Part shown: piece by piece, positions 3,287 through 4,866 of the stretch
Layout of the letters: each line of letters opens with the position of its first letter
How positions within the stretch are numbered: position 1 is the first letter of the stretch
Assembly: GCA_020628095.1 (NCBI GenBank)
Contig: JAHDFP010000001.1
Location: 186,001-250,000, forward strand
DNA length: 64,000 nucleotides
Reading direction: 5' to 3'
DNA from: Saprospiraceae bacterium
Lineage (GTDB): Bacteria; Bacteroidota; Bacteroidia; Chitinophagales; Saprospiraceae
Made by a program: the position numbers and the translations under genes
The notes under the pieces: generated by a model
The model's input: only the letters and a program-made list of their open reading frames with translations
What the model was told of the DNA's origin: nothing
Databases searched by the model: none

Positions 3287-3841
3287 ATGCAGACGGACTT
3301 ACACGATTTATTTCCTGACACAAAATCACTTGATCAAAAGTCAGTGACTGCTTTACTCAAATCCATTAAGAACAGCTATCATGAGGGGAGTTTTGATTAT
3401 CTTAAGTTTAAACAATCAGTACTCTCACTAGCCAAACTCAACATGGATGAGGCCACGAGCTTTAAGAGCGCTTTTGCGACTGCTCAGACGATGGGCTTAT
3501 CTAAGGAAAGCCTAATTAAGTCTGCCAACAAATACATCTACGCGCTGGAGGGAGAAAGAGAATCATTTGCCGAGGCACTGCTAAAGCAGAAAGAAATCAA
3601 AGTCGATGGTCGAAGGTCGGAGGTAGAAAAATTACATGACAAAATCGCATCTCACAAACAAAAAATAAAAGAACTAGAAAGGGAAATAGAAATATTCCAA
3701 CAGCGCATAGACAATGTCGATCAAGATGTAGATGACGCAAAAGCTAAAATCGAAGGAACAAAACGAAACTTCCTGAGTGTTTATGAGGTGATAAGCAAAG
3801 CGATCAAATCTGACATTGAGTTGATAACTATTTATTTATAA
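3287..3841 (+). CDS. Hypothetical coiled-coil protein
   Basis: This 184-residue protein has no signal peptide or membrane segment. Residues 1-95 are mixed helical, and residues about 100-165 form a strongly charged heptad-like coiled coil (KLHDKIASHKQKIKELERE and on). I do not recognise the family. It sits only eight bases upstream of the membrane-anchored PspA-like gene and was probably transcribed with it. A cytosolic partner of that protein is a reasonable guess, since coiled-coil accessory proteins often accompany PspA-type systems, but nothing in the sequence proves it. Confidence 0.75.
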   Translation: MQTDLHDLFPDTKSLDQKSVTALLKSIKNSYHEGSFDYLKFKQSVLSLAKLNMDEATSFKSAFATAQTMGLSKESLIKSANKYIYALEGERESFAEALLKQKEIKVDGRRSEVEKLHDKIASHKQKIKELEREIEIFQQRIDNVDQDVDDAKAKIEGTKRNFLSVYEVISKAIKSDIELITIYL

Positions 3842-3849
3842 AACATTAT

Positions 3850-4866
3850 ATGGCTAATTACGATAATCCTAATTCTGTAAAACCAAAATCGTTTTGGAGC
3901 AAACCTGAGGGCAAGACAGGAGCTCTTTTTTTACTTGTTATAGCTGGACTGCTTGTTTGGGCTGGCGTATCGTTTTGGAGTGTTCTTGTCCCACTTATGG
4001 GTTCGCTGATGGGTAAGGTGGCTATGTTCGGAGCATTAGGACTTATACTGTATATGGCGCTGGACACTAGGACCCGTAACTTATTCAGCTACATGTACCA
4101 GAGCATCATGAGAAAGATTACGTCCATCTTCGTGACTATAGACCCTATGGGCATACTCAAAAACTACATCTCCGACCTGGAGAGTAATCTCAAAAAAATG
4201 GGTAAGCAGATAGGAAACCTAAAAGGCCAGATGAGAAACCTCAAAAATCAGTTGGCCAACAATAATAAGGACATCGAAAAAAACATGGCCCTTGCCAGAA
4301 AGGCAAAACAGCTCGGCCAACAGCAACAGATGGTCTTATCAAGTAGAAAAGCTGCTAGACTAAAAGAAACAAACGAAAAATATGTCGCTCTACATAATAG
4401 GCTAGCCGTATTATATCGAGTATTAACCAAAATGTACTCTAACTCAGAAATCTTACTAGAGGATACCAAAGATCAGATCCGAGTCAAAGAACAAGAAAGA
4501 AAAGCCATAAGAGCATCTCACTCTGCGATGAAATCTGCTATGAGCATCATCAAGGGAGATCCTGATAAGCGAGCCATGTTTGATCAGGCGATGCAAGGCA
4601 TTGCCGATGATGTAGCTAACAAAGTAGGAGAAATGGAACGATTCATGGAGTTGTCTTCTGATTTTATGAATTCTATAGATCTGCAAGAGGGAATTTTCGA
4701 AGAGAAAGGTCTGAAAATGTTAGAGGAGTACGAAAAGAAAAGCACTATACTTCTACTAGGCGGACAAGAGCAAGCTGACGAAATACTTGACCTCAATGAA
4801 CCACGTAAAGAAGTCCAATATCGATCAGGAAAAGGAGATACAGACTACTCTAACCTATTCGAATAG
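3850..4866 (+). CDS. Membrane-anchored PspA/IM30 (ESCRT-III)-like protein
   Basis: The protein has 338 residues. Two hydrophobic segments (about 25-45 and 52-72) form an N-terminal membrane hairpin. The rest is nearly all helix: DPMGILKNYISDLESNL at about 98 resembles the PspA helix-1 entry (DP...L..YI.DLE..L), followed by a long Gln/Lys/Asn-rich hairpin (LANNNKDIEKNMALARKA), a second helical pair, and a late segment containing KVGEMERFM. The layout and spacing resemble the PspA/Vipp1 fold, but canonical PspA has an amphipathic helix where this has transmembrane helices. The last residues are acidic and aromatic (DTDYSNLFE) and could be a docking tail. Assignment is by visual pattern only; a generic membrane coiled-coil protein remains possible. 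It follows the coiled-coil gene and overlaps apbE. Confidence 0.55.
   Translation: MANYDNPNSVKPKSFWSKPEGKTGALFLLVIAGLLVWAGVSFWSVLVPLMGSLMGKVAMFGALGLILYMALDTRTRNLFSYMYQSIMRKITSIFVTIDPMGILKNYISDLESNLKKMGKQIGNLKGQMRNLKNQLANNNKDIEKNMALARKAKQLGQQQQMVLSSRKAARLKETNEKYVALHNRLAVLYRVLTKMYSNSEILLEDTKDQIRVKEQERKAIRASHSAMKSAMSIIKGDPDKRAMFDQAMQGIADDVANKVGEMERFMELSSDFMNSIDLQEGIFEEKGLKMLEEYEKKSTILLLGGQEQADEILDLNEPRKEVQYRSGKGDTDYSNLFE

Follow-up and report, generated by a model that had tools for sequence, protein, structure and literature searches.

PspA and Vipp1 are bacterial relatives of the ESCRT-III membrane-shaping machinery, and both bind the membrane reversibly via an amphipathic helix. Relatives that carry transmembrane (TM) segments have also been described. 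In the passages of PMC11237479 considered here, TM-bearing PspA/Snf7 homologues are mentioned in operons with ABC transporter and PBPB-OmpA genes, and the authors infer for them a link to solute transport. According to the same passages, how assembly is regulated in PspA homologues that lack an associated AAA ATPase is unknown (PMC11237479). A second example is the PPR protein of chloroplasts and cyanobacteria, which, according to the part of PMC13051332 consulted, is TM-anchored and has an ESCRT-III-like alpha1/2 hairpin. Since both of these have been described, membrane-anchored ESCRT-III relatives are already known as a type.

The gene pair described here lies in the window, by which we mean the whole stretch of 64,000 nucleotides of Saprospiraceae DNA that was analysed. 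Gene B (positions 3287–3841, plus strand) encodes a protein of 184 amino acids and gene A (3850–4866, plus strand) one of 338 amino acids. Both open reading frames (ORFs) were found where the first-pass annotation of this DNA had placed them, and so was the gap of eight bases (3842–3849) between the stop codon of B and the ATG of A. An ApbE-family gene (PF02424; 4787–5992, plus strand), a mechanical ORF of uncertain start, lies downstream and overlaps the end of A. Neither yidC nor gpsA adjoins the pair.

The first-pass annotation regarded A as a permanently membrane-bound variant of the ESCRT-III superfamily. The anchoring is supported, and the type itself is already in print in the passages of PMC11237479. 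As described there, those proteins resemble A in having a TM segment and a PspA/Snf7-like domain, and their operon, which encodes an ABC ATPase, a permease and a solute-binding protein with an OmpA domain, resembles that of A2, the paralogue of A discussed below. However, the systems in those passages are paired with an AAA+ ATPase, in whose place B is found here, and no transporter genes stand beside the window copy; their example, OGG56892.1, is likened to A by description (PMC11237479). PPR, likewise compared by description, shares with A the TM anchor and the alpha1/2 hairpin but is Vipp1-associated and belongs to photosynthetic organisms (part of PMC13051332). New here are B as the constant partner of an anchored PspA-like protein and the transporter-less duplicated pair. 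Neither B as a universal partner nor such a pair was found in the open-access literature passages searched, and one open-access library yielded no open-access paper on Saprospiraceae and PspA together.

We propose that an N-terminal hairpin of two TM helices anchors A permanently in the inner membrane, with both ends of the protein in the cytoplasm. The alpha0-like helix of A would lie at the cytoplasmic surface and its five-helix ESCRT-III-type region in the cytoplasm. By analogy with PspA and Vipp1, neighbouring copies of A would most likely polymerise along the inner leaflet, forming a scaffold that stabilises or bends the membrane. Soluble B would most likely bind A and control where or when A assembles, thereby taking the role held elsewhere by an AAA+ ATPase or an adaptor. 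The ancestral setting would be an operon that also encodes an ABC importer, the binding protein of which bears an OmpA domain of the peptidoglycan-binding type; in Saprospiraceae the B-A pair would have been duplicated, the window's copy now being free of the transporter. This statement as a whole, with anchored scaffold, B-controlled assembly and duplication from an importer operon, is held with moderate confidence. A bolder version is doubtful. In it B, a soluble coiled-coil adaptor always paired with an anchored PspA homologue, would found a new class of ESCRT-III regulators that nucleate or disassemble anchored PspA filaments without AAA+, and Saprospiraceae would possess a self-sufficient two-protein machine for membrane remodelling. 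A PspA-like protein that never detaches would split recruitment from assembly, and because A would never leave the membrane, the effect of polymerisation alone would be directly testable. B would be a concrete candidate regulator for PspA homologues without AAA ATPase, the gap named in the passages of PMC11237479, and a two-gene system is small enough for reconstitution.

Transporter operon, duplication and neighbouring genes

The genome from which the window derives also encodes A2, which is 59% identical to A. Downstream of A2 at its locus (L108) come genes for a binding protein that combines NMT1/THI5-like and OmpA domains, for an ABC permease and for an ABC ATPase. B2 lies approximately 4.5 kb upstream of A2 with other genes between them; the counterparts of B2 and A2 are adjacent in most relatives, and here the operon seems to have been interrupted by an insertion. 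Further families of the order, as well as one more distant family of the class, show the gene order B-A-SBP/OmpA-permease(-ATPase) (loci L156, L166-L169 and, judged from gene order alone, L196), and B-A-SBP/OmpA-permease-ABC ATPase is the older arrangement. ABC ATPase, permease and PBP-OmpA protein thus occur in the operon both at L108 and in distant relatives, and none of the three was found beside the window copy. The genes separating B2 from A2 (L108:9352-13842) lie on both strands, and few or no relatives examined share them.

The pair in the window is a duplicated copy without transporter genes beside it, and at many other Saprospiraceae loci, too, B-A stands without transporter genes in the vicinity. 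In a quick tree of 109 A proteins, for which sampling began from the window copy and five long-branched rows were left aside, the window type and the A2 type comprise 82 and 22 rows, with support of 85 and 90. Such a split fits a duplication and is consistent with the window copy having later lost the transporter, or never having had one. Among the 21 wide loci clustered by gene family, no AAA+ family recurs, nor does any additional family recur widely.

A different explanation is that A belongs to the ABC importer, as a membrane scaffold that links the transporter with the cell wall and with the binding protein that bears OmpA, and that it performs no remodelling; the transporter-less pair of the window would then be a retained spare or serve a regulatory use. 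We regard this as unlikely, despite the recurrence of the operon order in distant members and the similar conclusion drawn in the passages of PMC11237479, since the transporter-free loci are many, their branch of the tree is the larger one (in a sample begun from the window copy) and the cytoplasmic domain of A is PspA-like.

In many relatives the transporter-free copies lie near yidC and gpsA, in what would be an envelope-making context. Among 70 neighbourhoods of window-type loci, YidC was counted in 28, GpsA in 27, ApbE in 20 and DUF2130 in 12, all of these being lower bounds as the flanks are often incomplete. Proximity to yidC and gpsA points to a possible link with membrane-protein insertion and phospholipid synthesis. 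The ApbE gene, with its 20 of 70 neighbourhoods, is therefore an occasional neighbour of A and not a core part. An example of an A-type gene near yidC and gpsA, as often seen at window-type loci, is L040:1383-4341; where B is absent, a gpsA-like gene often stands immediately upstream of A.

Protein B and its association with A

B is a conserved soluble coiled-coil protein. Its AlphaFold2 (AF2) model (mean pLDDT 85) consists of a helical N-domain (residues approximately 17–68) and one long helix (73–183). Profile, Pfam and fold searches with B returned nothing beyond generic coiled coils and weak matches attributable to chance, and no recognisable fold relative appeared (best Foldseek E 2.0, best VIA Z 5.8). 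The transporter-linked copies of B are extended at the N-terminus by a stretch that includes a linker and is absent from window-type B. In these copies (L108:13843-14520 and others) the protein starts with a short basic, hydrophobic peptide followed by a low-complexity linker, and the start peptide is perhaps a membrane-touching tip.

The coiled-coil partner claimed in the first-pass annotation proved to be real and constant. A single-sequence search found A in 36 of the 149 genomes of the order, and all 36 also have B, whereas a profile search with B found it in 38. In the two genomes that seemed to have B only (G120 and G148), a protein of 371 or 369 amino acids follows directly after B, with two TM peaks and matches to the broad A profile (E 1.8e-10 and 5.7e-11). 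A and B therefore occur together in 38/38 genomes of the order having either. The formal p-value for the 36 shared genomes is 1.5e-32, a figure inflated by shared ancestry. Homologues with the same two-gene order, which the first-pass annotation had suggested looking for, are common: at the loci examined, B lies upstream of A on the same strand for 90 of the 121 A ORFs, with gaps of -4 to 562. The cultured relatives Portibacter lacus and P. marinus also have the B-A pair. Two of the 121 are too close to an end for the upstream neighbour to be judged, and the other 29 have a different one, often gpsA-like, its identity as GpsA having been confirmed by Pfam for one example.

A and B are proposed to bind each other, and B may be the assembly regulator of A, an assignment we make tentatively, at slightly less than even confidence. 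That B is instead a passenger, or a structural subunit that polymerises along with A, we consider improbable. That B has no recognisable domain and is missing from its adjacent position in the 29 A ORFs would agree with either; yet its presence in every one of the 36 genomes with A, and an A-like protein following B in two more, count against the passenger, though only against it and not against the structural subunit.

A very divergent B-A pair was observed in genome G017 (L170:7657-9164), its A-like protein being approximately 24% identical to A2. The same genome carries a second A gene beyond this pair, which suggests a further duplication or a replacement.

Membrane part of protein A

A is a real, conserved protein, and its conservation goes well beyond chance. 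Its closest named matches are in metagenome-assembled genomes of Saprospiraceae, with identities of up to 83%, and it was found at 69 loci in the search of genome contigs.

The two N-terminal TM helices reported in the first-pass annotation are supported by hydropathy and by the AF2 model. With a Kyte-Doolittle threshold of 1.6 across 19 residues, two hydrophobic segments were detected in 35 of 39 members of the A family and one in the other four, while none of 40 canonical PspAs has a TM peak. In the model, helices were predicted at residues 21–41, 43–51, 53–71 and 73–97, of which 21–41 and 53–71 are assigned as TM helix 1 (3910–3972, plus strand) and TM helix 2 (4006–4062, plus strand). Both segments precede the motif DP...L..YI.DLE..L, which was indeed present, as DPMGILKNYISDLESNL, from residue 98.

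Net charge amounts to +1.6 in the N-tail, approximately 0 in the loop between TM1 and TM2 and +3.2 beyond TM2. In all 46 A proteins the stretch that follows TM2 exceeds this loop in positive charge, as does the N-tail in 35 of them. Charge is related to TM topology by the positive-inside rule, and on this basis both ends of A are predicted to be cytoplasmic (N-in, C-in).

The two helices had been taken to stand in place of the amphipathic helix of PspA, and this part of the claim did not hold. Residues 76–97 (4075–4140, plus strand), a juxtamembrane alpha0-like helix, align with the first helix of PspA/Vipp1, and the TM hairpin is therefore an addition in front of this helix, not a substitute for it. 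The helix is only weakly amphipathic: its hydrophobic moment has a family mean of 0.37 against 0.22 for shuffled sequences, and it is individually amphipathic (p < 0.05) in just 10 of 46 A proteins.

Relation of protein A to PspA and Vipp1

The PspA-like helices of A occupy residues 98–292 (4141–4725, plus strand), with alpha1 at 99–155, alpha2/3 at 158–234 and alpha4/5 from 238, the last at low model confidence. The Pfam family PspA_IM30 (PF04012) matches residues 98–274 on profile positions 23–189 with 19.8 bits (E 6e-4), below the gathering cut-off of 33.9 bits; the two strongest relatives tested also stay under it, with 29.0 and 30.7 bits, and four of six divergent A proteins tested have no Pfam match at 0.01. 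PF04012 is nonetheless the commonest Pfam match among the members of the family (29 of 39 at E <= 0.1, best 6e-6), followed by TACC_C (14 of 39). A search of NCBIfam gave no meaningful family and one of PADLOC only weak coiled-coil matches, and an hmmsearch of the A profile against the PDB sequences did not find PspA or Vipp1.

As a control, an HMM was built on 40 canonical PspAs from the phylum, and 1,131 sequences (1,085 mechanical ORFs from the loci and 46 reversed A sequences) were searched with it. The HMM matches 107 of 111 A-like ORFs, 87 of which outscore the best remaining ORF, a B protein with 13.5 bits; the canonical PspA at L148 (281 bits) was set apart from these other ORFs. Reversed A sequences peak at 7.6 bits. 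Among the 106 hits in which the register could be read, 101 place the Asp-Pro of A on that of PspA. In the opposite direction, the A profile retrieves a canonical PspA that is over the Pfam cut-off (genome G202, E 6.4e-7).

The HMM-HMM comparison proposed in the first-pass annotation succeeded with broad profiles and failed with narrow ones. With 39 A and 20 PspA sequences, hhalign returned 20% in the wrong register, and global mode brought no improvement. After this first failure the alignments, which were built in this analysis, were widened by 7 divergent A proteins and 20 PspAs to 46 A and 40 PspA sequences, and the match rose to 95.3% (E 2.3e-8), with residues 77–292 of A on 1–207 of PspA. 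The outcome hinges on alignment breadth.

Structure prediction, also suggested there, agrees with a PspA fold. The AF2 model of A, made from a 39-sequence alignment, has a mean pLDDT of 71 and a pTM of 0.42, and its core helices (99–155, 158–234 and 238–302) agree with PspA in order and length. The alpha1-alpha2/3 hairpin is followed by alpha4 and alpha5, although from about residue 221 on, both of these included, block pLDDT is 49–66 or lower. In Foldseek against the PDB, ranks 1–12 are all Vipp1/PspA entries (best E 1.2e-3), rank 13 is an SMC coiled coil, and the ESCRT-III structures (Asgard ESCRT-IIIB and CHMP1B) come lower. VIA-align places residues 98–290 on Vipp1 24–215 (8qhx; Z 12.7, rmsd 28.4, 192 aligned), 100–232 on 26–158 (6zvs; Z 12.7, rmsd 2.6, 133 aligned) and 76–294 on 2–215 (7o3w; Z 13.2, rmsd 18.2, 211 aligned). 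Arms that are bent differently are the probable cause of the large rmsd values. Unrelated coiled coils also attain Z 11–12, so the VIA score alone does not discriminate, and homology is better argued from the register that Pfam, HMM, hhalign and structure have in common.

Like PspA/Vipp1 (IM30), A has the same helix order and lengths, an Asp-Pro opening alpha1, an alpha0-like helix and a common register over nearly the whole length. In contrast to them it has two TM helices in front, where PspA_IM30 proteins have a free N-terminus made of the amphipathic alpha0, and a C-terminal tail of approximately 45 residues beyond the PspA-like region. The resemblance proposed in the first-pass annotation thus stands at the level of the superfamily, as in-register homology over the helical core, and fails for the PspA family proper: being under the Pfam PspA_IM30 cut-off, A is a remote anchored relative. 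Homology of A to the PspA/ESCRT-III superfamily, together with its anchoring, is highly probable on the profile, fold and register evidence. That A is an ordinary TM-tethered coiled coil, PspA-like only in composition and helix lengths, is very improbable, for the failed narrow hhalign and the VIA scores of unrelated coiled coils would suit it, but the steady Asp-Pro register, the lower scores of reversed sequences and other ORFs (coiled-coil B included), the 95% broad profile match and the reciprocal hit to canonical PspA would not.

Replacement of canonical PspA by A was considered but is not proposed. Canonical PspA, counted as proteins over the Pfam cut-off, occurs in 6 of the 149 genomes of the order against 36 for A, with zero overlap, for which the chance probability is 0.18; genome G303 has a canonical PspA alongside a distant A.
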